Shown: positions 3,001 to 62,111 of the stretch, piece by piece
How positions within the stretch are numbered: the stretch's first letter is position 1
Layout: every line of letters starts with the position of its first letter
Assembly (NCBI GenBank): GCA_950295325.1
Contig: OX485803.1
Coordinates: forward strand, 10,850,001 to 10,914,000
Origin: Polytrichum commune
Lineage: Eukaryota > Streptophyta > Polytrichopsida > Polytrichales > Polytrichaceae
Direction: 5' to 3'
Length of the DNA stretch: 64,000 nucleotides
Notes under the pieces: model-generated
Told to the model about the DNA's origin: nothing
The model's database searches: none
The model's input: the letters and a program-made list of their open reading frames with translations, nothing else
Program-made: the position numbers and the translations under genes

Positions 3001-3645
3001 AGAGCAAGGTGAGAATGAATTTTGATGTTCCCCATGATGTTCATTGGAGGGGAAAATCAAAATCCACTCCCATGATCCTCTTTATTGGCTCTGTCTATAG
3101 GACAGAGACTATGCGTCAAGTTTTATGTTTCAATTTGAGCAAATTTCCTAACTACTTTGCGTTCACACTTGAACGTTACTTGTTCTTGCTCTATTTGGTC
3201 CATTCTATTTTAATGTGGATGTTAACTATAGTTACTATAGTTATACATATGTAGTTAATTATATTATTATATGTATCTAGTTAAGTATATTTGTTTCTTA
3301 AAACAAACTACATATAAAACAAATAAAATATATTATATAGTAGCTCTCTACTAGCTTGGACATAAAGTAACTAATTTTAAAAGTGCCTAAATTCATGGAA
3401 ATTTAATTTTTTTGGGTGTCTACAAACAATAATATTCAAGTAATGTCAAAATATTTTAAAAGTGCCTAAATTCATAGAAAATTAATTAAATAATGTTAGT
3501 TATAGAAAATATTTAAGTTAATTAAAGCCTCCAAAGATGAAATTAGGAAAACCATTCATAATTCATAAAAATGAATTGGATGAATGTCTATATTATTTTA
3601 AATGATTTTTGTAATCTACTTTTAAATAATTGTACATTCAACTTT

Positions 3646-3768
3646 TATGCATTCAACTTTTATGATTATGCATTCAACTTTTATAATTATGCATTCAACT
3701 TTTATAATTATGCATTCAACTTTTATAAGTATATATTCAACTTTCATAAGTATACATTCAACTTTTAG
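3646..3768. repeat. AT-rich minisatellite, about 21-bp unit
   Basis: About six consecutive copies of a 21-22-bp unit beginning CATTCAACTTTTAT, with small variations (TTATGATTATG, TTATAATTATG, TTATAAGTATA). It translates as a YxFNF repeat in one frame, but this is a by-product of the tandem repeat and there is no sign of a gene. The flanking DNA (about 3250-3900) is AT-rich and featureless. Confidence 0.85.
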
Positions 3769-11902: not shown

Positions 11903-11910
11903 CTACTGCC
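11903..11910. repeat. 8-bp target-site duplication, left copy (CTACTGCC)
   Basis: CTACTGCC directly precedes the TIR at 11911 and recurs exactly at 13181-13188 after the right TIR. Confidence 0.9.
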
Positions 11911-13180
11911 CTCGGGGGGTGCACTGTACTAAACATGTACGAGTATACGTGAGTGCACAGGAGGGGTATTGATTTGGACCTTGTTGTATTACGTATACAT
12001 ATGGTATACATGTTATAATTTATAGTTACGTACATATATGGAAGGCCTTTAAAAAGTATACAATAATTGTACTTGTATGGTACTGTTACTATACTACATA
12101 TCATAAGTTTTCATATTGGATGAAATTAGGATTAACTAGGATTAACGATTTTCGTTAGCAACCTTATAGGGTAGTATGAACCATGTACAAGGTGTCAAGG
12201 TAATATCGGGGAAAGAGGCAGTATTAGGGTTTTGAAATGATTCGTTCAGCTCAAAGTAACAAGGACCCTTTTCCCCTCCCATCCCTAGGTTTTTGTTTTA
12301 TCTTTTTGTCGGGCGCTGAAGGTTTTTGTTTTCTCTTCTCGCATAGCTTGCTTTTTTTTGCCAACAACTGCTTCACTTTTCCTTCTTTCACCTGTTGCTT
12401 CCAGCGCTTTTCAACGTCCGTGCAGTTACTGCTGCCGTGGGAATCACCGAAAGTCTTGACATTATCATGGCCTTGTTCTGAAATTCGGAGCTAGAGGACG
12501 CCTATATGAAGCCTAAACTCTTGAGTGATGGAAACCATGACACTTTGTTAAAGCTTGGTTGTGACTGTGGTGTGTGTTTTTTGAACACACCTGAAGCTAA
12601 AACCATGAAAAAACGAGGTAGGCCAAAAAAATCTACTCGAGTTAAGGTTTGGTTTGTTGGGAGAGTTTATAGGATGTGGAGGAAGTTTGGTAATCGTTGG
12701 GTGGAGTATAGGGATCCAATTGACTTGATGGACCGTCCATCAAACGTGGAGATTGGTTTATGTTGGTTTCAAAAAGGGACTAACAACAAGTGGACATACG
12801 ATCTTATTGATCATTTGATGGTAGACTTAGAGACAATAATTGCATTGGCTACAATGACATATATTGGTGAATCAAATGTTGATGAGTTACATCCAGGAGA
12901 TGAAAAAAATTTCAACGACTTTGTTGATGAAAGCTAGGATATTTTGTTACACATATTATAGGGGTTGATTATTGTTCAAAAGTATATTTGTATACTTATG
13001 TTAATGACTATATATGAATGGATGTTTTTTTGTGTATACATATTGTCACTTGTGTATTTATTGTTGCAATTGTATGTGTATTACTTCATTTCACAAAAAA
13101 TAACTTGTATATAGGGGGTTTTTAGAGTATGCAGTGAACGCACGTGATTCTAGGTTTTAATGAAAGGTGCACCCCCCGAG
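11911..13180 (+). mobile_element. 8-bp-TSD DNA transposon with AT-hook cargo, copy 1
   Basis: This 1270-bp element has perfect 14-bp terminal inverted repeats, CTCGGGGGGTGCAC at 11911-11924 and its complement at 13167-13180, flanked by perfect CTACTGCC duplications. An 8-bp duplication is known for hAT, P and a few other superfamilies. The TIR does not begin with the usual hAT CA, so the superfamily is left open. It carries one reading frame (12506-12937) and no recognisable transposase, so it is presumably non-autonomous. A second, 1396-bp copy is at 50556-51951. Copy 1 lacks about 150 bp in the 5' part of the frame. The element sits inside a MITE, which sits inside repeat R1. Confidence 0.88.
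12506..12937 (+). CDS. AT-hook cargo protein of the transposon, 143 aa
   Basis: The frame begins at an ATG also present as an internal Met in the copy at 51076-51708, and ends 243 bp before the right TIR. Residues 35-44 include KKRGRPKKST, a canonical AT-hook (R-G-R-P) with flanking basic residues, so binding of AT-rich DNA in the nucleus is likely by family knowledge. The rest (WFVGRVYRMWRKFGNRWVEY, a charged PIDLMDRPSNVE stretch, then an acidic C-terminus) matches nothing I recognise. Upstream, an in-frame stop and a deletion remove the N-terminal 67 residues found in copy 2. It is not a known transposase; it may be a captured host gene fragment or an accessory protein. Seventeen of 143 residues differ between the copies, against roughly five silent changes. 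Confidence 0.6.
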   Translation: MKPKLLSDGNHDTLLKLGCDCGVCFLNTPEAKTMKKRGRPKKSTRVKVWFVGRVYRMWRKFGNRWVEYRDPIDLMDRPSNVEIGLCWFQKGTNNKWTYDLIDHLMVDLETIIALATMTYIGESNVDELHPGDEKNFNDFVDES

Positions 13181-13919
13181 CTACTGCCACCTCCTTTCTC
13201 CTTGTATCATTGATAATTTTTTTTCATATCCTAACTAACACTAAATTCGTAAATGTAACTTCCACATATTACCATAGTTGGTATTTAGTGTTTGAGTTTA
13301 CTTTTGATGTTACTTACTTTCATAGGGTTAGTGATATTTAGTGTATGCGTTCGTATTTAGTGTATCAAACACTAAATATCATATTTAGTGTAGATGGCAC
13401 AATACATATAGGATCCCCCATTCATGTCCACTATTGAACCCATAATAGTTATCATATTTTAGGCATGTTGTTCAATCTCTCTGAAAACAATGTATCTTTT
13501 CTTTTGTATTCATTCTTGGAGCTGCACCTACCCACATATCATTCCAATAAAGGTGTCCGAGTAAGATTAGTTACTGAATTAAGCACATCTACCTTATGTA
13601 CCTAGTTGGATGCAAAATCTCTCTCACACAACATAGTATGTGCGTTAGACATATTCCACATCAAGGTACTTTTGTAGTTTAAATGTGCAACTTCCATGAA
13701 GTGAATCTTTTATAGGAATTCTAGCTCCTATCATGTATAAGCTTTCAAAATTTTGAAGGTCACCATCTGTATGTTTACCTTTAGAGCAATTAGTATTACA
13801 AATATACTCTAAGGGCGAGTTTCCATGTAGGCTGCTCATCCACCAGATTTTCGAGTGAATAAGGACAAATCCGTCCAAATGTAGAGGGAATTTGGTGTGG
13901 TAGGGTTCGTGTGTGCCAA

Positions 13920-18485: not shown

Positions 18486-20212
18486 GTTGTAAGAATCTTG
18501 AAGTTTCGTTCCAATTATACAAACCACAATACCATATGTTTCAACATGTTTATATACAATGAAAGATGTGGTGGTGGTGGCGAGGCCATCGCCTCATCAT
18601 TTCCGGCCGTTCTTGCCTAAAAAACAAAATGGTTCAAAAGAAAAAGGACCACATGTCAAAGACTCTCTCCCAAAACAAGCTTGGGACAAAAGAAAGAGGA
18701 AACAAGTGTGGAAAGGTGGGGGACTACAAGTGCAAAAGGCGGGTGTGTGGGAAACCTAAGGGAGGTGGCAAGCATGGAGCCGAGCTAGTGACATGGCATG
18801 GGCAAGAGGACAAAATAGGATTGTTTTAAAAAAATCAAAAGGATTATTTCAATATAAAAAGTGCAGCATTGGGGCATGGTGGCATGTGACAAGTCATGGG
18901 CGCTTATGAACATGGGCATGGGCATGGGCATAGATGCATGCACATGATGGGTATGCACGGGCACAGGATGGTTGCACGGGTGTATGGGGTTGGGTTCATT
19001 CAAGATATTAATTCATAAGCACGGGTGCAATAGACCAAGACAACACAAGTCCAAGCTAGTACTATACAAGAGACAATGTGTTGGTGATGGTGATAAGGCC
19101 ATTGTCCAACCAAAGTCCACCATTCCATAAAGGTGGGGGGAGGGGGCCAACGGGTGCAATGGGGCCTAGACAACACGGGTCGAACTATGTCACACAAACA
19201 ACACCAGCTCAAGTGTAAGTGAACTCTCTCTTCTCATACACAAATCCCTTACAAGTCTACAACTTTTGAGGTTTGCTATAGGCATCCCTCTCTGCCCTCA
19301 CCTCCATTTAGTTATCATTCACATGACATATGCATGATAATGAATGAATAATAATGAGGTGGGGACAAATCATGGGGAGGTCACTTCATTGTCAAGTTGA
19401 CACCACATGCGGACAAAGTTTGCTACCCCTATATTACATGCCATATATAATTTTAAAATTTATGATATTTTTTCTACATATACATAATCATTGACAGTAT
19501 CTTTTGTATATATTTTTTGAAAATTTTAATCATATATATATTTTTAAATAAATGTTTTTGTTCAATTCTGTGTCATTCTAGTTAGAAATGGTATGTTTTA
19601 TGGGAAAAAAAAATCATCAAATTTAGTTACCACTTTTACCTATGTCATAGGTATTGTGTATATCTACTCATGAAAAAAATTTGATAAAAATTTGACCCAT
19701 TTTGGTGGTGCAACTTACCAAAAGAAGATTTTTTTTGGTCGCACGTGGTGTTCAACTTGACAATGGAGTGATCTACCCGTGGGACAAATTGGAACAAATT
19801 TTTCATATTTGCATTCCCATCCACCCACCCCCAAAACTTCACACTAGTTTTTTTTGAGGGTTACCTTGTTTGACTAGGGATGAACGGCATGTGGTGGATG
19901 GCACTACGACAATCTCTTATGTTGCTTTCCATTGCTACAACACTTCACCGCAAAGGGAAAGTTGGATACATTGCCTTAGAAAAGTAGTGGGTCCCCTTAG
20001 TTACACCAACTCACAACTTCTCACACACCTCCCTTGCAATTGTCATTTGTGAATTTGAGGCGTGGAGGTTGTCGACTTGAGTTTGTGTTTGCCTTACAAA
20101 ACATCACACCCTACAAGGCGGCATATGGCGTCCTTTGAAAAACGCAGCTGTAAGGACGTAGGATTAGCATGAGACTTCTAACCATGACCCACATTATTGA
20201 TTTGCTCCTTAT
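18486..20212. other. Unassigned repeat-rich interval
   Basis: There is no supported gene. It contains a short ATGGGC tandem repeat (about 18898-18926). A block at 19019-19170 (GGGTGCAATAGACCAAGACA, CCATTGTCCAACC, CCACCATTCC) recurs in diverged form at 32590-32830 and near 41580-41660, so it is probably another dispersed repeat. AT-rich DNA fills 19440-19740. Confidence 0.4.
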
Positions 20213-43399: not shown

Positions 43400-44216
43400 A
43401 TAGCAATAATGTAGACTTATGATTACATTTAGTTACTCGTAAATACTAAGGCCATTTCATACTACAACTATACTTAAAGTTGGGGAGCACTGTTTATATT
43501 TTCACTTTTCCACTAAGATATGGGTCAATCACTTAATCTACAAGTGAAAGTGAAGTTATTTTTTGAAAGTTAGGCCTTCGAATGTAAATGCACTTAGTAT
43601 GGATTAATGGGCCCTCTAAAATATAAGTGACATGAATTTCAGTTGGGTAGGGTAGTCTGAGGAGGGTTGCCTTGCTTGACACAAAATGACCCATGGTTTC
43701 ATATCCTTTGACACCTCCTTACCCCGAATGAGTTCGTAAGGGGGGGATAGTGTCTTCTGAGTCAAAGACACCCCGATACACACTGTACGCCCGTTGATCT
43801 TGCCCTCCGGTAGATGGAACTAGGCTACATCATGCCCATCCTTTTGTTGCCATCACATAATTTCAATCACGTATTTAAGTTACAATAATTGTGCTTATCT
43901 TATGACTTAAGTGTTCACATGATGATAAATCTAGATGTTGTCATTGCCCTAGCTCTAATGACGTATGTTACATGGCCAAATTATCATGAGTTACATCATA
44001 TGGATTAAAAAATAGAATTTAATAGCATTTTCATTGGAAAGCGAAGTGGATCGTATATATAGTAAACAAATTACATTTTCATGATTTACATTTTGTGTAT
44101 GTGATAGGAATTTATCACATTATATTGAGAACCTTAGTATACATACATGAGTCCATTAATTGGTGTACCAGATTACTATGTATACTCTTTTCTCTTTACA
44201 AATTTTGTATGATATA
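43400..44216. other. Unassigned interval
   Basis: AT-rich DNA with no gene or structure I can support. Confidence 0.3.
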
Positions 44217-46480
44217 TGGTGGGAATTAATGGTGTTTGTTCTTTAGACATCACCACAACTTGTATTTGGTACTCCATGTGTAGTATAACACTATTTCTGT
44301 AGTGTCCGCACCCTCTGAATTGATATGGTCCACCTTATTTTTAAGAACTATCTTTTCAAAAGTAACTTAATAATTAATGGTATGGATGCCTATCACATCG
44401 ATCTGTTGCATCTAATAGCCGGTTTACACCATGGACCATGAAGTCGGACCATGGACTTAAAAAAGCAATACACAAAGTTTTTGGGCCCTCACTAGGTGTA
44501 AACCGAATGTGGACTAAGAGGAATGACCATGCACCCATAAGTGAATGTGCTGATTTTTTTGTAATTTATGCCCAAAAAGGGCAGTTTTGAAAAAAATAAA
44601 GTTTGACCATTCTCTTGTCTTCTCGTCTTCATCTTCTTTCCCCCCCCCAAAAAAATCATTGAAATTTATTATAACAACGTTTTTCCTGCCGTGGGCCCCT
44701 ACCTATTTCTACTATAGCCTCTTTTTTGCCTCTCCCACCGCAAAACCACGGGGAGGTCACTCAGTAGGATTTTTGTGTACCACGTGCGGCGGAGGGGTAT
44801 TTGTTTAGGGGCTATTTACCTCCAAGGCACGAATTAAAAGCTCCCTATAATTACATAATATTCTAAAATGGCCTATTTTTTTGTACCCTAGCATTACTTA
44901 TAATGCCCATGTCATTGAATTTTTTTGTAGTCTATATTCCTTTTAATTTAAAAAACTAAATTTAAGAATGTATGCAATGCAAAAGTGATGGGAAAAGCAT
45001 GGCAACAAAAAATATAAAAATTACGTACCATTGCAAAAACCAAGTACAAAAACTTAAAGTGAAAAACTTAAAGTGGATCGTTTCAGACCTGCTCTTCAAG
45101 GTTTCCGCATCAGATCACGCAGCCTGGCTAAAAAACTCTACACAAGATTGGAGAAGAGGATGACGACAAGCAATCCTAAACCCTAAACACAACGGTGAGG
45201 CTCAAATGTTGTGCACAAACAGGCGCCCTACAATCGGGTTGAAGAGTTTCAAAAGAGAAGGGGAGAAAAACCACCAAGAGAAGTCTGGCATAGAGTTAGG
45301 CTTCCAATTTCATTCATTTTTGGGTGAATGATGAGTAATTTTTCATCCATCCCTCGTGAGGCATGCGTACGAAATTGATTCTACTAAACATACATCCTAA
45401 GATCCTTATTTTCAGCCCCTATATTATTTTTACTAGAAGGGAATGACCCATATTTTATACCTGCCTATTTTACTTGTAATGGGCTTATGTACTTTTAATG
45501 GACCCTTCATTATTTGGAATTCTTTTATAATTTTTATGTCAAATGATTTTAATCCTCCCTACATAATGCCACACGTTGTTTTTAAAATGCACTAAGTGAC
45601 CTCCCCGTACACAAAACCCATTGGACCATGTTAGTTGATAATGTAGGCCTTAAAATTTGTCTTTTGTAACCTTGGTTGTGCATTTGCTTAAATCATGCCA
45701 TGCCAACATGTAAGTCTTAATTGATAGGTATCATGTTCTTTGTTCGGGGACCCGAGGGGCTTGTCACTTGGCACACAAACTACTTAGCCAACAACATAAC
45801 ATCATTCAGCCATGTGGGTCACTTCCATTGACCCTGGAATATGTCAAATTAATTTTGTGAGCCCCATGAACAAAGCAATAATACTTGTTCATTATTCATA
45901 CATTTAGGTTGACACTTGGAAATTTGGGTGGAGTTATAATCCTGGCACTTTCACATAAAACATTGTTCATCCCGACATTCTCCACAAGAAGCATTGTTCA
46001 TCCTGGCGCCATTCATAGTAGAACTTTTCACTGAAAATACCAACACTATCATGATATTCATACTATTTATTTTGACATTATTCACTATTCATACATGTGT
46101 CAATTTCTTCATATTATCTAAGTTTCTTCTAATGAAGATAAGATAGTCAAGGCCCATGTTAGATGCTAAATATAGAATGAATCACAACCATGTAGCTGAA
46201 CAATATTATGGGAGAGGAAATTGTGGAGGGGGAGACAAAATAGTAAGCTAGAAAGGGAAGGTACTTAGGGGGGACATAATGGCCCGGGGAATGATATTAA
46301 GAAGGGAACTCCACCTTGAGAGATGTTACAATGTACAATGGAAAGATAAATACAAGCATACATAGGATAGTAATGTACTCCTAAGTATTTACATGTGTTC
46401 TTCTTTTATAAAAATGGGGGCATGTATGTGGTAGAGTTCAAGGTGGTGCTCATGACCTTCAAGAAAGATGATGCTACCTT
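44217..46480 (+). repeat. Diverged segmental duplication, copy 1
   Basis: It is paralogous to 56786-57306 plus 63279-63420. GTGGGAATTAATGGTGTTTG opens both copies; later landmarks are ACTATTTCTGTAGTGTCC, ATAATTAATGGTATGGATG, AACCTTGGTTGTGCATT, GTCACTTGGCACACAAACTA and GACCTTCAAGAAAGATGATG. Copy 1 contains a Harbinger-like insertion (44417-45664) missing from copy 2. Copy 2 contains the copia element, missing here, and this copy shows its target as CATAGGAT near 46363. Confidence 0.75.
44417..45664 (+). mobile_element. PIF/Harbinger-like element, copy 3, degraded
   Basis: The left end AGCCGGTTTACACCATGGAC continues as in copies 1 and 2 (CTCACTAGGTGTAAACCGAA, GAATGACCATGCACC, GTTTGACCATTCTC). 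Near the right, AAAACCCATTGGACCATGTT and GTAGGCCTTAAAATTTGTCT match the distal part of those copies, but the final TIR is gone. It lacks the clear family A MITE. The paralogous locus near 56980-57030 lacks the element. Confidence 0.6.
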
Positions 46481-48734
46481 GAGGTGGCAACATATGTGTA
46501 AGAAGCAGGGATCACTTGTCGCAATCTTTGCTAGCTCCCCTTAACCATCTTAACCATTTTCATTTCTAACAAGGGTCATGAGCGCTAATCCTTCACATTC
46601 CACCATGCTAATGATTAGCTTCTCATACCCCGGACCTTATAATTCATAAGAGGGGAACCAACCCTCCTACTTTGCTTTCGGGACTCACCCCTTAATCAGT
46701 AACTAATTCTTAGATGTGGTCTTTCATTCATGAAAGTCCAATCTTATGTTGATCATCGCGTTGCCGGAGCAACACTACAACAACCCGAACCATACTAGGC
46801 AACTATGCCCTCACATTAGGCCAATGCCCATGGAGGCCGTGTTGTTTGGCCTCGGGTGGGTTCGGCCACACTACCTCACCCATATAAGCCTCTAGAACTC
46901 TAGGTAAGACCCCTACCCCACCGTCAAGAAAACTTTTGTCTCTCTACCAAGAGTTGGGACCAAGTAGACATTTCCCCTTAGCCGCTGGGGCTAGAAGCCC
47001 CCAACAACTTCAAAACACCATAACTTCCTTGTTTGATGTCTAATGCTAACAAGCGACCACTCCATAATCATCTACGCTTCACATAGATGCGAATGGACTC
47101 CTCACTTTCCCCATTTGGGCAAGTAATGAGGAAGTTATGCTTGTTCAAACCTTGGCAGTCCCGGGAGCCACTCCCAAGCCACTGCTGCAGTAGGGCGCTA
47201 TCTCGGGACAACGCCCCACTCAAATTGCCATATCTCTTAGCTTACACCTCCAATTGAGGTGTTCTTGAGCATTCTAGAATCAGCACACCATAAGCTACTC
47301 ATAGCTCATGGCCTTACCCTCGTGCCTCCTAGTTTTTGTGGGTGGGAGGTGTTCCCAACGCTCGGGGCCTTCACCCACACTAGGACCATTTGGCCCTTAT
47401 CACCAACGGCATCACAAGTTCCGGGTGTCACTCCGGGGTCCCCCTTGTGCCCATGGTGTTTCGGGCAGTCCTCATAGAGAGGTGCGCGGCATCACTGGCT
47501 AAAGAAGAGGAATTGAAGTTGCATTATTATTTATAGTAAGATTATTATCAGTTATTATAAGAGATTTGAAGAAAAAAATTACACCTGGTAATTCTAATAA
47601 GTTATAAATGATAATTTGCTTACCATGAGAATGACTTGAAATTTAGAAATACTAATTTCATTTCAAGTTGTCACCCAAATTCTATGGGAGATCGATATAC
47701 ACCTACAATCATTCAGCTAAGTAGAGCACACATGAAGTTTAGACTTGGACATTATCAAACACTGGAATATGATGGATTATTACGACGTCGGCTAGAAGCG
47801 CAAATGCAAATTGATATTCATTTGCAAATCCAAAGGTACAATATAATTTTTCTGTAATATATGGAATGTACTAGACATGCATTTGCATATTGGTAAGATT
47901 AGATCGTCATCTCCGACCTCCTTTGTACCAATATGAGAAGTAGAGATGAGCCAAAGATACCATAATCATCTATAATATGATACAATGTTGATATGTGAAG
48001 GTTGGTTCATCTAGGATCAATAGGGCGTTTAAACCTAATGAAGAGAAAACTACTAACGAACATGAGTTGTGAAGATACATAAGAAGATACACCTGTGAAG
48101 TCGACTCTAAAGTCTTACAAGAGAAACAACTTGGGAACAACTTCATCATGTTTAGAAGCAATGAATCATGAGAACCTCAAAGATCTCATATTTTCTTCAT
48201 GAGCCGATTTAGACGAAAGGTGCTTTGTCGTTGTTGTTTATGCTTCAATCAGGGACTCATCTACTCCTACATAATCCATACTCATCGGGGACATAATCTA
48301 TTGCTCAAGAAACTGCCCATATCCCCCACTCACACAGGTCACACACAACAACAACAACAACAACAACACAAGTGCAAGCTTGAGCCCCTTCGCGGCCCTC
48401 AAACCTTGGACCTCACACCCTACCCCTAAGTCCCCCTTGGAAGCTGCCTTTTTAGAAATTTTCAAAAAATTCAAAAATTTAAATAAAATTCTATAAATTC
48501 TAAGAAAAGAAATATAAAACTGAGGGGATCTAGATGGTGATCCCCGCATAAGAAAAGCTACTTATAATAAGCTCTACAAACAAAATTTGGAGGTCCAAAA
48601 CTTTTCTAATTTGAACATTTATGGTGTCATTGGATTCCTCTCAATGTCCTCTTTCTATGCATGTTGTTTGTTTTTACAAAATTAGCAAATTGTAAACTCT
48701 TAGATGCATTAGAAGGGAATAACAAGGAGCTGTT
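46481..48734. other. Unassigned interval, possible retroelement remnant
   Basis: The part 46600-47500 is GC-richer with no supported frame and has the look of decayed LTR or non-coding element sequence, though I cannot assign it. A (CAA)n microsatellite lies at 48345-48370. Near 48440-48560 is a unit related to 49905-50110 and 50145-50375. Confidence 0.3.
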
Positions 48735-48812
48735 TTGGAAAGTAGAGTTGCCACCCCGGGGATGCTACACACCTCACGCTCACCTCACTTGACAATTCAC
48801 CAAATCAACCCT

Positions 48813-50380: not shown

Positions 50381-50547
50381 ATTCAATTCTAAACCCAACA
50401 TTGATTATGCGAACTTTTTTTATAACTCAAACACAACTTGTGTGAACGGATTCCTCTCTATGCCCTCTTTCCAAGCATATTTCTCCTTTTTTTGAAAAGA
50501 AAATCATGGATCCATAAGAAGTATTACTAGAAGTGATTTACAAGCAA

Positions 50548-50555
50548 CTAAAGAT
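50548..50555. repeat. 8-bp target-site duplication, left copy (CTAAAGAT)
   Basis: CTAAAGAT precedes the TIR at 50556 and recurs exactly at 51952-51959 after the right TIR. Confidence 0.9.
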
Positions 50556-51951
50556 CTCGGGGGGTGCACTGTACTAAACATGTACGAGTATACGTGAGTG
50601 CACAGGAGGGGTATTGATTTGGACCTTGCCGTATTACGTATACATATGGTATACATGTGATAATTTATAGTTACGTACATATATGGAAGGCCTTTAAAAA
50701 GTATACAATAATTGTACTTGTATGGTAGTGTTACTATACTACATATCATAAGTTTTCATATTGGATGAAATTAGGATTAACTAGGATTAACGATTTTTGT
50801 TAGCAACCTTATAGGGTAGTATGAACCATGTACAAGGTATCAAGGTAATATCGGGGAAAGAGGCAATATTAGGGTTCTGAAATGATTTATTCAGCTCAAA
50901 GTAACAAGGTCCCTTTTCCCCTCCCATCCCTAGGTTTTTGTTTTCTCTTTTTGTCGGGCGCTGAAGGTTTTTGTTTTCTCTTCTCGCATAGCCTGCTTCT
51001 TTTGCCGACAACTACTTTACTTTTCCTTGTTTCACTTGTTGCTTCCAACGCTTCTCAGCAACCCTGCGGTTACTGATGCCGTGGGAATCACCGAAAGTCC
51101 TGACATTGTCATGGCCTCGTTCTAAAATTCCCTCTCTATCAAATGCAAAGTTAGTTGTGGCTTATGTAATGGTAGGGGAGTCTAGAATTTTTAAAAGTAC
51201 ACTTGTTAGTCAATTGAATGGCAATCCTTCTTTATGTAAAGATCGGTTGACTCGAATTAGAGTTGGCATGTTATATATGAAGCCTAAACTCCTAAGTGCT
51301 GGAAACCATGACACTTTGTTAAAGCCTGGTTGTGACTATGTTGTGTGTTTTTTGAACACACCTGAAGCTAAAACTGTGAAAAAACAAGGTAGGCCAAAAA
51401 AATCTACTCGAGTTAAGGTTTGGTTTGTTGGGAGAGTTTATAGGATGCGGAGGAAGTTTGGTAATCGTGGGGTGGAGTATAGGGATCCAATTGACTTGAT
51501 GGACCGTCCATCAAACGTGGAGATTGGTTTATGTTGGTATCAAAAAGGGGCTAACAACAAGTGGACATATGATCTTACTGATCATTTGATGGTAGACTTA
51601 GAGACAATAATTGCATTGGCTATAATGACATATATTGGTGAATCAAATGTTTATGAGTTACATCGGGGAGATGAAAAAGTTTTCAACGACTTTGCTTATG
51701 AAAGTTAGGATATTTTGTTATTCATATTATAGGGGTTGATTATTGTTCAAAAATATATTTGTATACTTATGTTAATGACTATATATGAATGGATGTTTTT
51801 TTGTGTATACATATTGTTACTTGTATATTTATTGCTGCAATTGTATGTGTATTACTTCATTTCACAAAAAATAACTTGTATATAGGGGGTTTTTAGAGTA
51901 TGCAGTGAACGCACGTGATTCTAGGTTTTAATGAAAGGTGCACCCCCCGAG
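50556..51951 (+). mobile_element. 8-bp-TSD DNA transposon with AT-hook cargo, copy 2
   Basis: This 1396-bp element has the same perfect 14-bp ends (CTCGGGGGGTGCAC) as copy 1 and its own perfect 8-bp duplication CTAAAGAT. It lies about 90 bp beyond the stop codon of the double-kinase gene, in the opposite orientation. It keeps the longer version of the reading frame. Sequence outside the frame is also closely similar to copy 1, so the family moved fairly recently. The two targets share only CTA at their start. Confidence 0.9.
51076..51708 (+). CDS. AT-hook cargo protein of the transposon, long form, 210 aa
   Basis: The frame opens with MPWESPKVLTLSW. Residues 27-67 (KLVVAYVMVGESRIFKSTLV and following) are missing from copy 1. 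The C-terminal 143 residues match copy 1. The AT-hook here reads KKQGRPKKST, so R-G-R-P has become Q-G-R-P, a weakened hook. The central WFVGRVYRMRRKFGNRGVEY block is basic. There is no catalytic DDE/D signature and no BED finger or hAT dimerisation domain that I can see, so it is not an evident transposase. An upstream T-rich stretch (50930-51060) with ATG codons in other frames could be a leader or intron. It may be a captured plant gene fragment; function unknown. Confidence 0.6.
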   Translation: MPWESPKVLTLSWPRSKIPSLSNAKLVVAYVMVGESRIFKSTLVSQLNGNPSLCKDRLTRIRVGMLYMKPKLLSAGNHDTLLKPGCDYVVCFLNTPEAKTVKKQGRPKKSTRVKVWFVGRVYRMRRKFGNRGVEYRDPIDLMDRPSNVEIGLCWYQKGANNKWTYDLTDHLMVDLETIIALAIMTYIGESNVYELHRGDEKVFNDFAYES

Positions 51952-52044
51952 CTAAAGATCAAAGGGAAAGTAGTCCATAGAATCCTCCCAATGCCCTCTT
52001 TCCAAGCATGTCGCTCCCCAGATTTGTTTTGCGACGATAAATCA

Positions 52045-55000
52045 TCAATTCATTAGGAGCATCAGAAGTGGTTTATAAGAAAGAAGTGATTTAAAGAGGA
52101 GAGTTGCCGACCCAGCAATCCAAACGACGAGGAATGTGATGATTACCTCAACAGTGTGTTCGATTGCAACTTGTGTCGCAACGTGTTGACGTCGTCGTAG
52201 CTGGGAACGACCCCGCAGCGTCGTCTCAATATACTTGTGGCTATTTGGATATTCCACCCTCCTTTGTTGCACATCTGCATCAGCAGTAAAACGTCTGCTC
52301 AAGAGGTCATATTTGCACATCTCAAGCCTTGTGCATATCTGTTCAAAACTTGGTCTTGAACGAGGGTTTATATCCCAAGCCTCATGGATGAGTGCAGCCA
52401 ACTGTGGAGGGCAGTCTCTGGGAAGATATGGCCTATAACCACTCAGCACCATGTGGTGCAGCGGTCTCTCAGGGAGTTCAACGAAGGCCTTCTGCAGAGT
52501 GAGTATCTCTGAGCAAGTCACGGCAAAACTATAAACATCCGCCTTGAACCATTGCTCCGGCTTAAACCTTTGTGGTTGGGGAGACATTAGCTCTGGAGCT
52601 CTGTATGTACTGGTCCCAACACGAGCTGACTCTGACGTGCTCTCTTTTTCACACCACACTTGTTTGGACACCCCAAAATCGATCAACTTCGCCAAAAAGT
52701 AATCCTCAAGATATGGAGTGCCGGGGACATTGCTGACCACCACATTCTGTGGTTTCATGTCGCGATGTGCAGTTCTCATGTCATGCAGATAGCACATCCC
52801 CTTTGCAATTTGGAGCATAATGTCAAGGGCTACAAGGGGCGGAAATGGCTTCTCCTTCTCTCGACGCTCTAGTATCAAATGGTGCAGGTCCATCTCCATA
52901 GCCTCCATCCCAAAAGAGAGCTCATTTTTCTGAGGGTCATGGCCACAACAGAAGAACTTCACAACGTTGGGGTGGTGGAGACTTGCCAAAATCGCTGCTT
53001 CTTTCAGAAATATGGGATTAGGGCCCGAAAATACGTCGCCTCCGATATACTTCATTGCGCAGGGAAGGCCAAGCCACCTAGTTCTTAATACTGTCCCGGA
53101 AGCTCCTTTTCCAAGGAATCCAATAATTTCGACTTGTGTTTCTGTTTCATTCGCCGACAAGAGTGCATCATATATGCCGAACTTGAGATCTTCGGATGAT
53201 GTGAGCTTGAGATTGTGTAACAAGTACCCTACAAGTCCGCACTGATCATTTGATAATTCGACACCCCCAGGAAAGTATCCTGTAACGCGTGGATCAGTAA
53301 TTATATTATTGTCAATGGCATACTTCTCAAGTCTCTGCTGGAATGTCTTTCGATCTTCAACAACCTGATTATCGTCTGCGGGCTCAAAAGTTGATAATTG
53401 GCGGAGGTCTTCTGTTTGTAGATGCCCTTCTTCCTGTTCAAAGATTTCTCTCGCTTGCTCGTAGATGACATTGTAGCACAACCCCATCTCCACCAAGATC
53501 TCTCGAAAGGCCTCCTCATTCTGAATCTGGATTAAGGCTGCTCTACACCAATCTTTCCTGGAGCAGTCACTGACAAGCAACCTCGACTTCTCCGAGATTC
53601 TATAGAAGTTCTCCAAAGCTGGTAGAAAGTGTGGATCATTGATGGACGCAGCTCCAGGGTGTGAGATTAGTTCCTCAACATTCTTGACAGTTTTGTAAAG
53701 CTTCGAAGACAGATCTTGACACTGACTCCCATTTAGCAGGTTTCCACGACCTACAAGGTTTGCAATATCCTTAACACATTGCATGGATTTTTGCATTGGC
53801 GCCTTGGACTTCGCCCGTGCAGCACTTGGGATTTTGGCAGTCTGTTGCATTCGTAGGTGAGGGTGATGTGTCAGCAATGTGTCAATGTATGTGTAACCTT
53901 CCTCACCAGTAGTAACGGGTGTCAGGAGGTCATATTTGTACCTTTCCAATGTTATGCAAATCTCCCTAAAAGTTGGTCTTAACTGAGGCTTGGTATCCAA
54001 ACATTTCTCCAAGAGTGCAACCAACTCTTGGGGGCACTCTGAGGGAAACATTGGCTTCCAACGAAGTCTCGATGACACGTCACGCCGCATATGTGGAGGA
54101 AGATCTTGGAATGGCGCCTCTAGGGTAAGTAGCTCTGTGCAAGTCAGCGCAAAACTGTAAACATCCGCCTTGAACCAATTCACCCTGGTGTTATATTCTG
54201 GTCGAAAATCGTCGCGTGCCTTGCAAAATACCTCTGGGGCTCTATAGTTTGTGGTGCCAATATTATTTTGAGAAGGAGTATTGGACTTGGAAAAGTGCAC
54301 CCTTGTCTTTGCCAAACCAAAATCAACCAACTTGACCAAAAAATCAATAAGATCAAGATCGCTGGGAACGCGGCTGATCACTACATTGTGCGGTTTAATG
54401 TCACGATGCGCAATCCCTTGGTCATGCAAATAGCACATCCCACGTGCTACTTGAATTATAATGTGAAGTGCGAGATAATATGAGAATGGTTTCTTTTCCT
54501 CTCGTAGTTTCCCAATGAAATCAAACAGGTTCATCTCCATGAGCTCCATTCCAATATAGTACTGCCTCTTTATGGTATCATGGCCGCAACAGAAAAATTT
54601 AACGATATGGGGGTGGTTGAGACGTGCCAGAATTTCTGCTTCTCTCTGAAATGTGTCACACGCTGACGGGATGTCACATATATTTTCCAGTTTAAAGATC
54701 TTCATTGCAGAGGGCATGCCAAGCCATTCGATGCGTAAAACAGCTGCAAATCCCCCTTGCCCAAGGTAATGAATTATTTTGACTTGTGATTCCATTTCAT
54801 TCGGCCACGGTAACGTATTAGACATGCCTAAGCCCTCTTTCATGCGCTCTTCAGACATATGTTCTAATTTCCCCAACAAGTATCTTGCAAGGCATTCATC
54901 ATATGGCGAGAAGGAACTCCTTTGTATCCATAATTTTTGACGAGTCTGATCAGGTGATAGACCGGAACTCCTGGCTAGTTGCTCCTCAAGTCTCAGGCGG

Positions 55001-55437
55001 AGTGTCTTCTGATCCTCAAGAACCTCACTTTTGGATGCGGGCAGAAATGTTGGGAACTTGCGAAGATCTTCTACTTGGACATGCCCGTCCGGTCCAACTA
55101 TACCTCTCGCTTGCTCGTAGATGACATTGTAGCATAACCCTAAATCCATCAAGATCTCGGAAAAGGCTTCGCCATTATGCATCTGAAACACAGACGCTTG
55201 GCACCAATCTGCTCTGGAGCAGTCATTGATGAGCAATCTCGACCTCTCCAAGACTCCATACAAGTTCTCTAAAGCTGGTCGAAATTGTTCAATATATGAA
55301 TCTGCTCTGAAGTGCAGGACTAGTTTTTGAACATTCTTGGCGGTTTGGGTAACCTTTGAACAGAGATCCTGGCACTGCCTTTGATTTAACAAGAGGCCAC
55401 GACCTACACGGTTTCCAATATCTTGAACAGAGTCCAT
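52045..55437 (-). CDS. Double MLKL-like kinase, two helical-kinase modules, 1130 aa
   Basis: One uninterrupted frame. Module 1: helical domain about residues 1-150 (ALENLYGVLERSRLLINDCS, then MDLGLCYNVIYEQA), kinase 1 about 218-505. Module 2: helical domain about 552-705 (ALENFYRISEKSRLLVSDCS), kinase 2 about 768-1045. The helical parts resemble the MCAfunc/HeLo-type bundle of plant MLKL-like proteins. Kinase 1: G-loop 226-233, K246, E266, HRD 344-346, DFG 372-374, APE 400-402. Kinase 2: G-loop 776-783, K796, E813, HRD 891-893, DFG 920-922, APE 947-949; both look catalytically intact. HRDIKPHN and HRDMKPQN suggest Ser/Thr specificity. Residues 1095-1119 are hydrophobic, a possible tail anchor. 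The likely role is signalling or cell death in immunity, by analogy with plant MLKL and tandem kinase proteins; untested. An unequal duplication of one intronless gene explains the layout. Confidence 0.88.
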   Translation of the reverse strand: MDSVQDIGNRVGRGLLLNQRQCQDLCSKVTQTAKNVQKLVLHFRADSYIEQFRPALENLYGVLERSRLLINDCSRADWCQASVFQMHNGEAFSEILMDLGLCYNVIYEQARGIVGPDGHVQVEDLRKFPTFLPASKSEVLEDQKTLRLRLEEQLARSSGLSPDQTRQKLWIQRSSFSPYDECLARYLLGKLEHMSEERMKEGLGMSNTLPWPNEMESQVKIIHYLGQGGFAAVLRIEWLGMPSAMKIFKLENICDIPSACDTFQREAEILARLNHPHIVKFFCCGHDTIKRQYYIGMELMEMNLFDFIGKLREEKKPFSYYLALHIIIQVARGMCYLHDQGIAHRDIKPHNVVISRVPSDLDLIDFLVKLVDFGLAKTRVHFSKSNTPSQNNIGTTNYRAPEVFCKARDDFRPEYNTRVNWFKADVYSFALTCTELLTLEAPFQDLPPHMRRDVSSRLRWKPMFPSECPQELVALLEKCLDTKPQLRPTFREICITLERYKYDLLTPVTTGEEGYTYIDTLLTHHPHLRMQQTAKIPSAARAKSKAPMQKSMQCVKDIANLVGRGNLLNGSQCQDLSSKLYKTVKNVEELISHPGAASINDPHFLPALENFYRISEKSRLLVSDCSRKDWCRAALIQIQNEEAFREILVEMGLCYNVIYEQAREIFEQEEGHLQTEDLRQLSTFEPADDNQVVEDRKTFQQRLEKYAIDNNIITDPRVTGYFPGGVELSNDQCGLVGYLLHNLKLTSSEDLKFGIYDALLSANETETQVEIIGFLGKGASGTVLRTRWLGLPCAMKYIGGDVFSGPNPIFLKEAAILASLHHPNVVKFFCCGHDPQKNELSFGMEAMEMDLHHLILERREKEKPFPPLVALDIMLQIAKGMCYLHDMRTAHRDMKPQNVVVSNVPGTPYLEDYFLAKLIDFGVSKQVWCEKESTSESARVGTSTYRAPELMSPQPQRFKPEQWFKADVYSFAVTCSEILTLQKAFVELPERPLHHMVLSGYRPYLPRDCPPQLAALIHEAWDINPRSRPSFEQICTRLEMCKYDLLSRRFTADADVQQRRVEYPNSHKYIETTLRGRSQLRRRQHVATQVAIEHTVEVIITFLVVWIAGSATLLFKSLLSYKPLLMLLMN

Positions 55438-56785
55438 GCAATGTGCCCAGTAACCTTGCGCTTCATTGGATGAGGATCTGGCATGAACTTCGAGATTTAA
55501 CAGCTCGCTGCTCCTAAAGGTTTCACAAGTTTGAGCAGCGATACCATGTCATTCAGCTGGAGGTCTATTTAATGGATAGGAATGTAACGCAACCAAAATT
55601 AAGAGATTTCCAGAAACCATATCCACTTACAATTTCTAGTAAACAAATACATCTTATAAGAGGAATAAGTGAAAAGTCTAAATACCTGAATGATGTGATT
55701 GCTTCCACAATCTGCCAGCAGCAAGGAGGAAAGATTGATATCGTTGACATCGGTTTCAATAGCAAACTTTCTAAGCCAGCAGGTAAATGTTGGAGCCGGA
55801 GTTGACCTGGGCATTCACATGTCGGGCACACTACAACACTGCACGAGAGGAGATTGTGCAGATAGGAAGCTAGATAGTAGAAAGAAAAGTGTACGAACAA
55901 TTTCAACAGGCCGTAGTTCGAAAGCCAGCGTAATAATCAACATGAGCTGCTATTCACATTGCCAGAAGAAATGTCAAATATCAAAGAGACCCATGTTAAG
56001 TGCCACAATTTGTTTGAGCGCATTCGGAGACACACCGTCATACGGATCTTCTCTCTAGAAGGTCACTATATCCTCGAACACGCGCGTGAAGAGACAATTT
56101 AGTTTTAAATCTTCACATAATGAATCCAATCCACCTCACCCCATGCCTACCACAATTACAGAGATATACAGCTCACTTTGAAGATCACCAAAACCAGAGG
56201 CAGGGTACGTAGTTCGTCGATGTAACAGACCAAATCTAAGTGGGCCAGAAACAAGACGTACATGATAAACTTGCACAGATCCAAGTCACAAGGAAACTCA
56301 TGTACTGGGCCCGAACAAGAACAAATCACCCCACATCAGTCTGGCACAGCGACATAGGATTTTGAGGTCACGTGAGACCAGTGACTCATGGAAAGATACA
56401 CGAGGAATAACTCCTCCACGCTTCTGCTACTCGTATGAACCACCCAGTACATTTAACCCAAATCCACGAGCAAACTCCCAATTCGCGACTCGCAGGCATC
56501 TCCTACAAATTTGTGAACCGGTAGGGATATAAGTTAACCAGAGCAGCGCATGGGACATCATAAGTCAGAGATGCAAGGACGGACGGTGGGTGCTCTTGAA
56601 GGAAGAGTGCAAGAAAGTCTTTCCAAACTTAAATGTTTTATTGCCAAAATTGTCGGTAACTTAGCTACAGTTAAGTTGGCGTGTACAATGTGTTCCGCAC
56701 GCAGAATTCACGACATCTGTAACTTGTGCACTGGATTCCTGGTGAAGAAGAATAGAAGAAGAACTCCTCCAGTACTTAAGAATTG
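55438..56785. other. Upstream region of the double-kinase gene
   Basis: It probably holds the 5' leader and promoter of the minus-strand kinase gene. Frames here overlap on both strands and none is convincing. No TATA element or known operator could be assigned with confidence. Confidence 0.35.
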
Positions 56786-57647: not shown

Positions 57648-57696
57648 AACCATAGGATTAATTCTGCAATTCTATACTTAGATCTGATTCGCTCCA

Positions 57697-58677
57697 ATGG
57701 AGAAGCGAGACGTCGAGCTCCCTAAGATTTTTGATGGAGAAAAGTTTCCCGTCTGGCGATTTCACATGGAAATCTGCTTCGGAGACACAGGTACCATGCC
57801 AATTGTCAACGGCACCCTCCTAAAACCACCAGAGACCGCTACCGAAGAAGAGAAACTCGCCTGGGAAAAAGCAGACTCACGAGCAAAAAGAATGATAAGT
57901 TCTTCAGTGTCTATTTCAGTTCTTGAAAACTTAGTCAATTGCACTACTGCTACATGCATGTGGGCAACACTTTGTTCCTTCAATTACAAGATGCATGCAG
58001 GTGATTCCATCAATACACATGTGAATAAGATAATCAGTATGGGGAACTTACTCAAAGAAATGGGAGAACCATTTACTGAGAAAATGTTGATCACCAAAAT
58101 TATTTGTAGTCTTCCAGCCAGCTACAACAGCATCATAACAGCATGGGCGAATCTTCCTACTACTGAGCAAACTGTTGCCAACCTCAAGGTTAGGCTTCTT
58201 CAGTTGGAGAATCTTCTGGCACTCCAGAATACTGACAGTAATAGTGATGCAGCATACTTCACTCGCTCAAGCAAGCATTTCAATGACCGATCTGGTGACA
58301 TATATGTTGATCGCTCCAGAGATCGCTTCAATGATCGCTCCAGTGATCGCTCCAGTGATCGTCCAAGCAGATCATCCACGAAAGGCAAGAAACAACAACA
58401 TGAATACAACAAGGATTATATACAAGACTTGAAGAGCTGCACTAGATGCTTCAATTGCGGGGAACCAGATCACTGGACTGCTGAGTGTCCTCGTCCACGA
58501 CAAGATCGAGTTAAGTTTTCAAATCAGAAGAAACAACAACATGACCGACGACACAGAGATTCCAATAGCAAGCGAAGCGAAGCATATGCAGTAGCAACTG
58601 AACAGCATCACTCTGATTCCAGTAATCACTCTTCACAATCAAATACTGATTCCTGCGCACTCGTAACTGTAAGTTGA
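57697..58677 (+). CDS. gag: Copia gag protein, 326 aa
   Basis: The capsid-forming part of the element. It starts at the first ATG after the primer-binding site. The N-terminal half is the UBN2-type gag domain of plant copia elements (FDGEKFPVWRFHMEICF; then MWATLCSFNY and ITKIICSLPASYNSIITAW). A DRSxDR repeat of Arg/Ser/Asp is at about residues 207-228, then a zinc knuckle C-x2-C-x4-H-x4-C (CFNCGEPDHWTAEC, 58447-58488) for RNA binding. It ends at TGA (58675-58677), but the same frame continues directly into the protease region; in most copia elements gag and pol are one frame, so the stop is either a mutation or a readthrough site. Confidence 0.9.
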   Translation: MEKRDVELPKIFDGEKFPVWRFHMEICFGDTGTMPIVNGTLLKPPETATEEEKLAWEKADSRAKRMISSSVSISVLENLVNCTTATCMWATLCSFNYKMHAGDSINTHVNKIISMGNLLKEMGEPFTEKMLITKIICSLPASYNSIITAWANLPTTEQTVANLKVRLLQLENLLALQNTDSNSDAAYFTRSSKHFNDRSGDIYVDRSRDRFNDRSSDRSSDRPSRSSTKGKKQQHEYNKDYIQDLKSCTRCFNCGEPDHWTAECPRPRQDRVKFSNQKKQQHDRRHRDSNSKRSEAYAVATEQHHSDSSNHSSQSNTDSCALVTVS

Positions 58678-61600
58678 CACTCACATGCGCTAAGTGTTCA
58701 CTTAGACGAGACAGCCTGGTTTGTTGATTTAGGAGCCACAGAACACATGACTGAACACAAGGAATGGTTTACAACGTTCAAGGATATACCATCAGGTACT
58801 TGGTCTGTGTCTGTTGCTGATAATCGAAATCTCTGGGTACGAGGCATAGGTGATATACATATCACAAGAACTGTTGACGGCATAATAAAGCAGGGCATCC
58901 TCAAACAGGTCCTATTCATACCTGAACTACGCCGAAATCTTTTTTCTATTGGTCACGTCTCCGAAACAGGGTACTCCTTTCAAACTATTGGTGACAAATG
59001 TGTTATTCGCAAAGATTTCGGCAAGGGTCCCAAAGTCATGCAGGGAATTCGAATCGGGGGACTGTACAAGCTCTCCATCGATCATGTTTTACCTTCAAGA
59101 ACAGCAATGCAAGAGTCATCAACTGTCCTTACAGTTAGCAATAACTGTGACACAGATCTCACACTCTGGCATAACAGGATGGGACATGCAAATGTACAGG
59201 TACTTAAGCAAATGAGTATACACAATAGTCTTCAAGATTTCACCGTCTCTCCACATGGTAAACTGCTTTCTGTATGTCAAGGCTGTGCTCTCGGCAAACA
59301 ACACAAGGCATCATATGTTTCCCGACCATTCAAGGAAAGATCAAACATACCTGGAGAAGTCTTACACGCCGATCTGTGCGGGAAGATGTCCCAACTCTCC
59401 CTCGGAGGAACATCTTATTACATGCTGATCAAAGACGACTGCACATCTTACAGGTTTGTTGCATTCCTTAAAGCCAAAGGTGATGCACTTCGATTTTTCA
59501 ACAAGATTCTTCGTTATATTGAACGCACCACAGGCAATCATGTCAAGACTCTTCGGACAGATCGGGAAAGAATTTTGTAATGATGAATTTGACTTACTTC
59601 TCGAACGCGAAGGCATTTTACGAGAAACCAGTACACCTTATACTCCACAGCAGAATGGTTATGTTGAACGTGACAACCGCACTATCTGCGAAGCTGCTCG
59701 CAGCATGCTTCATCTTCACAACATTCCCTTGAAGCTTTGGGCCGAGGCTGTTCACACAGCTGTGTATCTTCTCAATCGCACCATCAATACTTAAGTTGGA
59801 TTCGTTACTCCATACGAATTATGGTTCCATACTAAACCTGGTGTGTCCCATTACCGTACCTTCGGCACTCTTGCTTATATATTCATTGACAAATCATTAC
59901 GCACAAAGTTTCAAGCCAAAGGTCATATGGTTGTTTTCATTGGCTATAGTCCTACCAGCAAGGGGTGGAGGTTTTGGCATCCTTCTACCGATCATGTCTC
60001 TGAGAGTTCTAATGTCATTTTCGACGAACGAACTGGTTACTCGTCATCCCTCTTTCTTTCCGAACAGGCATCCCCTGTAAATATACCAGTTCACCTACAT
60101 TTTCCTACTACTATATATTTTCCCTTCTATTCCAGTGGGAGGTCCAGTGGGAGATCCTCATGTCGCTCCACTAGCTGATCCAGTGGGAGATGACGTAGCT
60201 GATTCAGTGGGAGAACCATTATCTTCCATTTCGTTAACCCCTCTCGATGACGATTCCCATTCATCTTTTCCTAATCTACCAGATTCTACACCACTCTGTT
60301 ATGATGAATCTCTTCCTTCTTCTTCTTCTGATCCTTATAATTTTGAAATTCCTTATTCACATCCGACTCCCTTATCTGATGAACCTCTTCAACCCAAGTT
60401 TAAGAGTCTTACCGACTTATATATTGATCCTACTCCTTCAACCTCATCCTCCTCATTCGCAAATATGGTTTCATTTGCTGAGTCCTACCGTGAACCTGCC
60501 ACTTATCAACAAGCAACTATGTCACCTCAAGCTCAATTCTGGAAAGAAGCCATGGACAGAGAATACAATTCGTTGATGGACAATCATACCTGGATTTTGG
60601 TCCCTCCTCCTCCTGGTCGCAAGATTATCCAGTGTAAATGGGTCTACAAAATCAAATACACCTCAACTGGTGCTATTGATAAGTATAAGGCCAGACTTGT
60701 CGCAAAAGGATATAGTCAAGTTCATGGTATTGATTACACCGAGACATTCAGCCCAGTTATTAAACATGACTCTATTCAGGTATTATTTGCGATTGCTGCT
60801 ACCTTACGCATGCATATGCGCCAATTTGATATTGGTACTGCTTATCTGAACAGTGACCTAACCACACGCATTTACATGCGTCAACCCGAGGGTTATCTTC
60901 ATTCCAAACTTCCCTCACATGTTTGCCAACTCCTCAAGAGTTTATATGGGCTTAAACAATCTGGCCGACTCTGGAATCATACTTTTGATACATTCCTGAA
61001 GCTTTATAACCTTTTACCAAGCGACGCCGACACATGTGTTTACTATTGGCCAACAACTTCTAAACAATCTGTGGACCTTATCGTCGGGATTTTCGTGGAT
61101 GATGGTATTGTATGTGCTTCAAATGAACAAGATCTTGATGCTGTCATTCAACATCTGGCCAGTATGTTCAAGGTAACTCACGGCCCTATGGATTACTATG
61201 TGGGTTTTCAAGTTCACCGTGATTTATCTAATCATACCATCTTCATCAATCAAGCTAGATATATTTCAGACATTCTTCACCGGTTTTAGCTTCAAAATGC
61301 AAACCCTATCTCTACTCCAACTGACAACCACGTACCTCTTCAAGAGACATTAGGCCCAGATGACACTCTTCTTCCATCAACAATACCTTACAGAGAAGCA
61401 GTCGGCTGTCTTATGTACGCCATGGTACTCACACGTCCTGACATCGCTTTTGCGGTCAGTCGCGTTGCGAAGTTCACCAACACACCTCGACAATCTCATT
61501 GGACTGCGGTCAAGCGTATCTTTCGATACCTTTCTGGTACTCAACACATGGGACTATCTTATTATGGTTCTCCATCAGATCTCACTCTTCGAGGATATTG

Positions 61601-62111
61601 CGATGCTGACTACGCTGGCAATCACGACGACCGCAAGTCACGCACAGGATACATGTTTCTTCTCGCCAATGGCGCTATAGCTTGGTGCAGTAAACGGCAA
61701 GGGTGCACCGCTGATTCCACTACCGAAGCCGAGTTCGTTGCCCTTGCCGAATCCGTCAAGGAAGCCATCTGGTTACGCCGTCTCCTTCACAGTTTGGGTT
61801 TTCCTTCCCACCAACCCACACAAATTTATTATGACAATCAAGGCGCAATCCAACTGGTCAAGAATCCCAGGTATCATAAGCGCACCAAACATATTGAAAC
61901 CAAATACTATCTTATTCGTGAGAAGTATGATCAACAACAGATCGATGTGTCCTATATTAACACTAAACAACAGCCAGTAGACATCCTTACCAAGGCTCTT
62001 ACTCGTGATACTTTTCAGTATCTCCGTCATCTTCATGGTCTTGTTGTTCCTCCTTCTCGAACGAGTGGGAGATTAGATGATAACGTTCTCACAGAAGAAC
62101 AACCAAGTTAG
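58678..62111 (+). pseudogene. pol: Copia pol, broken by stops and frame changes
   Basis: Segment 58678-59580 is in the gag frame: protease active site as WFVDLGATEHM (the usual DSGA is DLGA), then GAG-pre-integrase with HNRMGH and CQGC zinc ligands, then the start of the integrase core (LHADLCGK; TLRTDR). Around 59565-59575 the frame changes by a small length difference. Segment to 59794 holds the catalytic Glu region (PQQNGYVERDNRTI) and ends at TAA. The same frame resumes to about 60178, and the frame changes again near 60135-60178. Frame 60135-61289 is reverse transcriptase (CKWVYKIKYTSTGAIDKYKA, FDIGTAYLN, GIFVDDG in place of YVDD), ending at TAG. The same frame continues from 61290 through RNase H (GYCDADYAGN, TTEAEFVALAE, YYDNQGAIQL) to 62111. 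Confidence 0.9.

Follow-up and report, generated by a model that had tools for sequence, protein, structure and literature searches.

The element at 50556-51951 and the other insertions of the window

The window (the whole 64,000-nucleotide stretch of Polytrichum commune DNA analysed here) contains at 50556-51951 a short element with inverted ends and a single reading frame. The question raised by this locus is what kind of transposon it belongs to, which enzyme moved it and whether the frame is a gene of its own. As developed below, the short copies very probably arose by internal deletion from a cut-and-paste DNA transposon with a large unrecognised transposase, presumably a DDE enzyme of RNase H fold. 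The features of the window concerned are as follows.

50548-50555, no strand: left target site duplication (TSD), CTAAAGAT; present as a single copy, CTAAATAT, at the empty site L054
50556-51951, plus strand: non-autonomous element under study, 1396 bp
50556-50569, plus strand: left terminal inverted repeat (TIR), CTCGGGGGGTGCAC, 14 bp, perfect (TIR scan of the window)
50556-50973, plus strand: left 418 bp common with a 9148-bp copy elsewhere in the genome, 96% (sequence alignment)
51076-51708, plus strand: 210-codon frame, matching the transposase C-terminus from about codon 17 (alignment to the L009 frame)
51125-51951, plus strand: right 827 bp, shared at 96% with the 9148-bp copy; contains the C-terminal codons of the transposase (alignment)
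51938-51951, minus strand: right TIR of the same element (TIR scan of the window)
51952-51959, no strand: right TSD, CTAAAGAT (direct reading of the 8-bp duplication)
11911-13180, plus strand: second non-autonomous copy, 1270 bp, with TSD CTACTGCC at 11903-11910 and 13181-13188
11911-11924, plus strand: left TIR of the second copy (TIR scan of the window)
13167-13180, minus strand: right TIR of the second copy (TIR scan of the window)
12506-12937, plus strand: 143-codon remnant matching the same transposase C-terminus (alignment)
46478-48760, plus strand: third insertion, L017/L025 family, 2283 bp, TIR CTTGAGGTGGCAAC/CCCGGGGTGGCAAC, with TSD GATGCTAC at 46470-46477 and 48761-48768

The two copies reported in a preliminary description, with their perfect 14-bp TIRs and each with its own perfect 8-bp duplication, were confirmed. 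Exactly four matches to CTCGGGGGGTGCAC with up to two mismatches were found in the window, compared to an average of 0.11 in shuffled sequence, and the two elements were identical at 1200 of 1269 aligned positions. The third insertion, at 46478-48760, had been missed. Three pieces of it matched the end regions of L017 and L025 at 79-91%, no transposase match was detected within it, and it was judged to be older.

The flanks of the 50556 element (50396-50555 and 51960-52119) are repetitive. A CCCGGGGTGGCAAC end is found no more than about 30 bp from at least three of the sequences that they match, so the element may have inserted into an older relative. A possible 411-bp miniature element with ends CATGGGGAGGTCAC/CACGGGTAGATCAC and an exact 8-bp repeat, GGACAAAT, was seen at 19371-19781 and may be due to chance. 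At 43898-44023 a short fragment is similar to the transposase C-terminal domain (50% over 42 residues). By eye, the coding frames of a Copia-type retrotransposon occupy 57688-62111, and a 1167-codon open frame on the minus strand (52045-55548) reads as two tandem protein-kinase-like domains. Pol_BBD and gag_pre-integrase domains of the retrotransposon were detected in 58678-59577.

Genome-wide copies and target site duplications

The plastid psaA and psaB proteins scored best against 8htu and 6l35/7ksq, which are photosystem I of Physcomitrium patens, ahead of angiosperm chains, in agreement with a moss host. The exact 14-bp TIR occurred 721 times in the 408-Mb genome versus 7 times for a reversed-pattern control. 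To call the family small was therefore an understatement: there are hundreds of ends and several related families, some of them with uninterrupted transposase frames.

The 8-bp duplication, on which the preliminary description had staked the family, was found in the other copies as well. An exact TSD flanked 26 of 30 distinct insertions, and the remaining four matched at 7/8, 7/8, 6/8 and 1/8 positions. The sample consisted of 31 rows, namely the eight best BLAST matches, 20 pairs from C1, the two window copies and the long copy; since the 50556 copy was counted twice among them, the raw count of 27 of 31 becomes 26 of 30. The 20 short copies were chosen, as exact TIRs pointing towards each other, from the first 100 TIR places in the list, which are all on C1; L001-L008 were the best genome matches (40 of 1715 candidates scored). 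The rate therefore applies to well-preserved copies. L011 (2,982 bp, paired ends, TSD 7/8) stands outside this count.

An empty site was found for the 50556 copy. Joined together, its flanks gave an ungapped alignment of 318 bp (97%) with C1:11031019-11031336, where a single target octamer, one base different from CTAAAGAT, is present. This site is paralogous and lies in a duplicated region 129 kb away, most of the approximately 3 kb read being 93-95% identical. Furthermore, the 50556 element was identical to L002 on C5 (1396/1396), and the 11911 element was identical to both L035 and L037 (1270/1270 each), in each case with different TSDs. Identical copies within different duplications point to recent mobility of the family.

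Paired TIRs, a TSD of fixed length, an empty site (for one insertion) and longer relatives in which the same ends enclose a transposase gene are together the characters of a cut-and-paste TIR transposon (class II). The short copies fall into size classes of about 1396, 1270, 784 and 716 bp that differ by internal deletions, and a 271-bp class retains short end pieces alone. Overlaps of 9 bp and 3 bp at the deletion junctions of the 716-bp and 784-bp classes, respectively, may be read as microhomology.

Longer relatives with uninterrupted transposase frames

The preliminary description had suggested a search for a longer relative encoding a transposase, and such a copy was found. When the genome was queried with the 210-residue protein, copies with a far longer open frame, up to 796 codons, were recovered. 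One of them, at C4:55005007-55014154 (two stretches joined), is 9148 bp long, has the same ends as perfect TIRs and is flanked by the TSD GTTTATTT, which is weaker evidence than the other duplications because a 45-bp tandem array that contains the same octamer has its edge there. About 150 bp between the two shared parts of the 50556 element are missing from this copy. Its frame of 1,450 codons contains two in-frame stops, leaving open stretches of 392, 260 and 796 codons in one frame. With the closest full-length copy interrupted in this way, the current helper is perhaps a family at 66-68% such as L012/L018, each of which showed one end.

A 593-residue core of the transposase gave at least 77 matches in the genome (74 of 458 candidates scored), nine of them open, without an internal stop, over 1,490 codons or more. 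Frames of 1,493-1,549 codons from stop to stop were verified at seven loci (L014, L015, L016, L019, L020, L021 and L023); from the first ATG they measured 1,490-1,509 codons, except for L015 with 1,333. Shorter frames were present in L017 (1189 codons), L025 (1114) and L026 (1127). The ends of these relatives are C[C/T]CGGGG. Among 12 relative loci (L014-L017 and L019-L026), six had an exact 8-bp TSD, one a TSD of 7/8, two were one-ended and three were without ends in the DNA fetched. The loci with paired ends were:

L016, 5,802 bp, exact TSD AATCTAGA
L017, 6,034 bp, exact TSD CTCAGCTC
L025, 5,800 bp, exact TSD CTCGTTAC
L019, 6,351 bp, exact TSD AAAGAAAC
L021, 6,880 bp, exact TSD GGGTGGCA
L026, 8,611 bp, exact TSD GTTCTCTC
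L020, 8,315 bp, TSD 7/8

One end each was seen in L014 and L015. No ends were detected in L023 even with extra flanks, nor in L022 and L024 within 6.5 kb. Outside the set of 12, L010 had one end, as did L012 and L018, and none was seen in L051. At its loosest setting (10 of 14 positions) the TIR search returned some hit in 9 of 100 shuffled-flank runs; the accepted end pairs begin with C[C/T]CGGGG on both sides. The exact ends of two further families occurred 211 times (control 2) and 31 times (control 2) genome-wide.

The pN/pS ratio was 0.20-0.39 in six of eight transposase pairs, with synonymous sites saturated, which indicates purifying selection on the transposase. The other two ratios were 0.57 for L017/L025, which are 99% identical, and 0.67 for L012/L018 (30% identity), discounted because the two sequences cover different parts of the protein. 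A transposase tree was not used, as only one of its seven inner branches is starred and L009 is flagged as a long branch. In L015, positions 1258 and 8356 enclose the uninterrupted 1506-codon frame; an inverted repeat was found there, with the palindromic octamer CATTAATG on either side. The N-terminus of L015 is unlike that of L014 and is similar, by eye, to the frame L009:8172-8546.

The frame of the short copies

The single frame of the short copies had been described as a protein-coding cargo. Positions 51124-51702 of the window were 92% identical to residues 603-795 of the L009 frame, that is, to the last 193 residues of the protein of the 9148-bp copy. The frame is thus, by alignment, a leftover transposase C-terminus and apparently not a selected passenger. 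That both window copies carry the same frame was correct in so far as both contain the same transposase C-terminus, but the lengths differ (210 versus 143 codons). The wider view of a non-autonomous, TIR-bearing family with 8-bp TSDs held up: the copies have no complete transposase and matched no Pfam transposase model.

The AT-hook-like motif fared less well. Its Pfam match was sub-threshold in the 143-residue copy (E 0.56) and there was none in the 210-residue copy; as it is also unconserved at that place in the relatives, the AT-hook was rejected as a defining feature. A GRP[S/P] motif, which we take to be AT-hook-like, was seen by eye further upstream in 7 of 10 aligned sequences, as RGRP in L014, L016, L019, L021, L023 and L026 and as AGRP in L020. 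The 210-residue frame had no Pfam match and nothing significant in the PDB (best E 0.42), and its structure as predicted from two sequences (pLDDT 32) was useless.

Alternatively, the short elements might produce a selected cargo or a repressor like KP, in keeping with the interfering truncated proteins reported for the P element (PMC9033089) and with the GRPKK motif in the frame. Among the 38 listed rows that reach within one residue of both ends of the 210-residue query, 19 were stop-free, but the other 19 contained stops. The changes unique to single copies were 33 nonsynonymous and one stop versus 8 synonymous, a ratio of 1.11, as expected under neutral evolution; the test is based on 42 unique changes over 145 codons, from a set with several identical copies. 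The set comprised 13 of 15 sequences, including the 9148-bp copy, L011 and the identical copies (the 50556 element and L002; the 11911 element, L035 and L037), while L005 and L007 were left out of the pN/pS count for a gap in the alignment. In addition, the 716-, 784- and 271-bp classes, in which the remnant is shorter or absent, moved too. Because of the neutral evolution in the copies tested and the identity with the transposase C-terminus, we rejected this explanation as very unlikely.

Candidate catalytic motifs and proposed mode of transposition

Four motifs, AEDET, SDxDxRRR, QDxxH and DxCExFFS, occurred in this order in all 10 aligned transposase sequences. On their conservation, D702, D821, the DxxH at 868-871 and E1063 of L016 are candidate catalytic residues of what would be a DDE enzyme with an RNase H fold. 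In the transposition cycle that we propose, the transposase of approximately 1,500 residues from the longer relatives would recognise the C[C/T]CGGGG ends and excise the element, and insertion at an 8-bp staggered cut would produce the 8-bp duplications. The short copies retain both ends, which would be enough for mobilisation in trans, and the frame that they carry would be what the internal deletions left of the transposase. Catalysis, fold, trans-mobilisation and the affinity to P elements considered below are what we infer from the sequences.

Probable capture of host gene pieces by the 9148-bp copy

Positions 659-3717 of the 9148-bp copy are a chimera that matches four loci on four chromosomes (C7 at 96.5%, C1 at 92.4%, C3 at 93.4% and C2 at 97.0%), and the pieces abut with overlaps of 1-2 bp. 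No TIR with up to three mismatches was found in the 1.3-5 kb fetched at the four source loci. A DUF1295 gene makes up the largest piece: PF06966 was detected in three of four frames scanned (E 3.9e-28, 1.3e-4 and 0.052), and similar frames were seen by eye in the C2 locus. A second copy on C3, L051, contains part of the chimera block together with part of the transposase at 97-98%. These matches suggest that the 9148-bp copy captured pieces of host genes, the direction from host loci to element being deduced from the four separate sources.

Pack-TYPE capture is known for MULE, CACTA, hAT, PIF and Mariner elements according to PMC8903248. The present case resembles Pack-MULE, Pack-CACTA, Pack-hAT and others in having chimeric host gene pieces between transposon ends, and differs in that the capturing copy bears a transposase and belongs to another lineage. 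Four-locus capture would add an agent of gene shuffling beyond the superfamilies named in that paper.

Recognition by databases and significance

No significant match of the transposase was found in Pfam or the PDB. When the 10 aligned transposases were compared with Pfam the best matches were chance-like, the lowest E value being 0.038 in one member. As a positive control, the hAT-type frame L012 5716-7077 (minus strand), located beside the 66% family relative, was recognised as DUF659 at 5.5e-34, indicating that Pfam can see transposases in this genome. No relatives were found in prokaryote and viral collections. In the literature titles and opening parts of abstracts, on which this comparison is based, no description of the lineage was found; its novelty is provisional.

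The elements are apparently an undescribed lineage of DDE-type transposons that is absent from Pfam, possibly of superfamily rank, and the transposase is most plausibly related, at a distance, to the P/hAT/MuDR group. The joint reading, which adds radiation into several families (some with uninterrupted frames), recent mobility and a multi-locus host-gene chimera captured in at least one copy, is put forward tentatively, at slightly less than an even chance.

A high-copy lineage invisible to Pfam would end up among unclassified repeats or, with worse consequences, be annotated as host genes with about 1,500 codons. If this is a divergent P-like lineage, the P group extends into land plants; otherwise it is a new superfamily. 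With uninterrupted frames available and identical copies known from different sites, it is practical to assay transposition in a moss.

Comparison with known systems

Assignment to the P superfamily as a divergent member, which would mean a land-plant transposase of P/THAP9 type with ends of a new kind, is possible but in our view doubtful on balance. The TSD is 8 bp as in P (PMC7776569), internally deleted non-autonomous copies occur in both, and D, D, DxxH and E follow in the same order within similar motifs (AEDETKV/AFDEMKV, SD, D..H..K...N and D..E.FF). A joint pattern, composed post hoc from both, matched none of 20000 shuffles of P. The spacing from DxxH to E was 188-195 residues compared to 192 in P and that from the second D to DxxH 42-47 compared to 36, whereas the first two D residues were separated by 119-120 residues versus 73 in P. 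Unguided addition of P with MAFFT brought D1, D2 and E into register but left DxxH unaligned; with reversed P no such register was obtained. Profile similarity was not significant: hhalign scores against P were as high in 35 of 150 shuffles and HMMER scores as high in 273 of 1602 scored decoys (3000 made). No significant similarity to the P/THAP9 RNase H domain was thus obtained, with the limited sensitivity of a single P sequence. The Pfam P-type RNase H model matched P itself and none of the scanned transposases, in which no N-terminal THAP zinc finger was detected by Pfam either. A classical P model had no match in the genome, but it had none in the controls either, so that absence of P is not shown thereby. 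The ends are CTC/CCC, and the protein, with about 1,500 residues, is approximately twice as long as that of P. Table 1 of PMC9033089 lists Tc1-Mariner, hAT, Sola, MuDR, PIF-Harbinger and CACTA as the TIR superfamilies of land plants, and P is absent from that table.

We regard a Zisupton/KDZ or MuDR-like element as highly improbable. MuDR duplications are usually 9 bp long versus 8 bp here, and Pfam contains KDZ models. None of the 10 members scanned had a significant Pfam match, whether to a KDZ or to a MULE transposase domain; from Zisupton/KDZ the family is set apart on this result. The shared features are the 8-bp TSD of Zisupton (PMC12730594), the very large transposases and elements of KDZ, which can exceed 1300 residues and be very large, respectively (PMC12477816), and gene capture like that of Pack-MULEs. 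Least probable of the assignments, and very much so, is an ordinary hAT family with unusual ends: the 8-bp TSD, the short TIR, internal-deletion derivatives as in Ac/Ds and a DxxH motif common to the family and hAT (PMC9587614) are opposed by a larger transposase, by the 10 aligned transposases, none of which showed a hAT domain at E values up to 10 (the real hAT frame of this genome being detected readily), and by Pfam scans without dimerisation domain, DUF659 or BED finger.

The ends and targets of the family agree with this. The termini of hAT elements are of the CA/TA type and their target pattern is nTnnnnAn, whereas the present ends are C[C/T]CGGGG and the pattern fits 4 of 26 TSDs versus 2.4 expected. 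Lanisha, a proposed superfamily of the CMCT clade, has been reported from a moss and moves by cut-and-paste. CMCT lineages mostly have CA..TG ends, TSDs of 2-5 bp and C(2)C/H(3-4)H motifs (PMC12730594); in contrast, the family described here has CTC/CCC ends, an 8-bp TSD and DxxH. Since hAT, MuDR, KDZ and CMCT/Lanisha each fail in a tested feature, the family was filed as an apparently undescribed lineage that is absent from Pfam.
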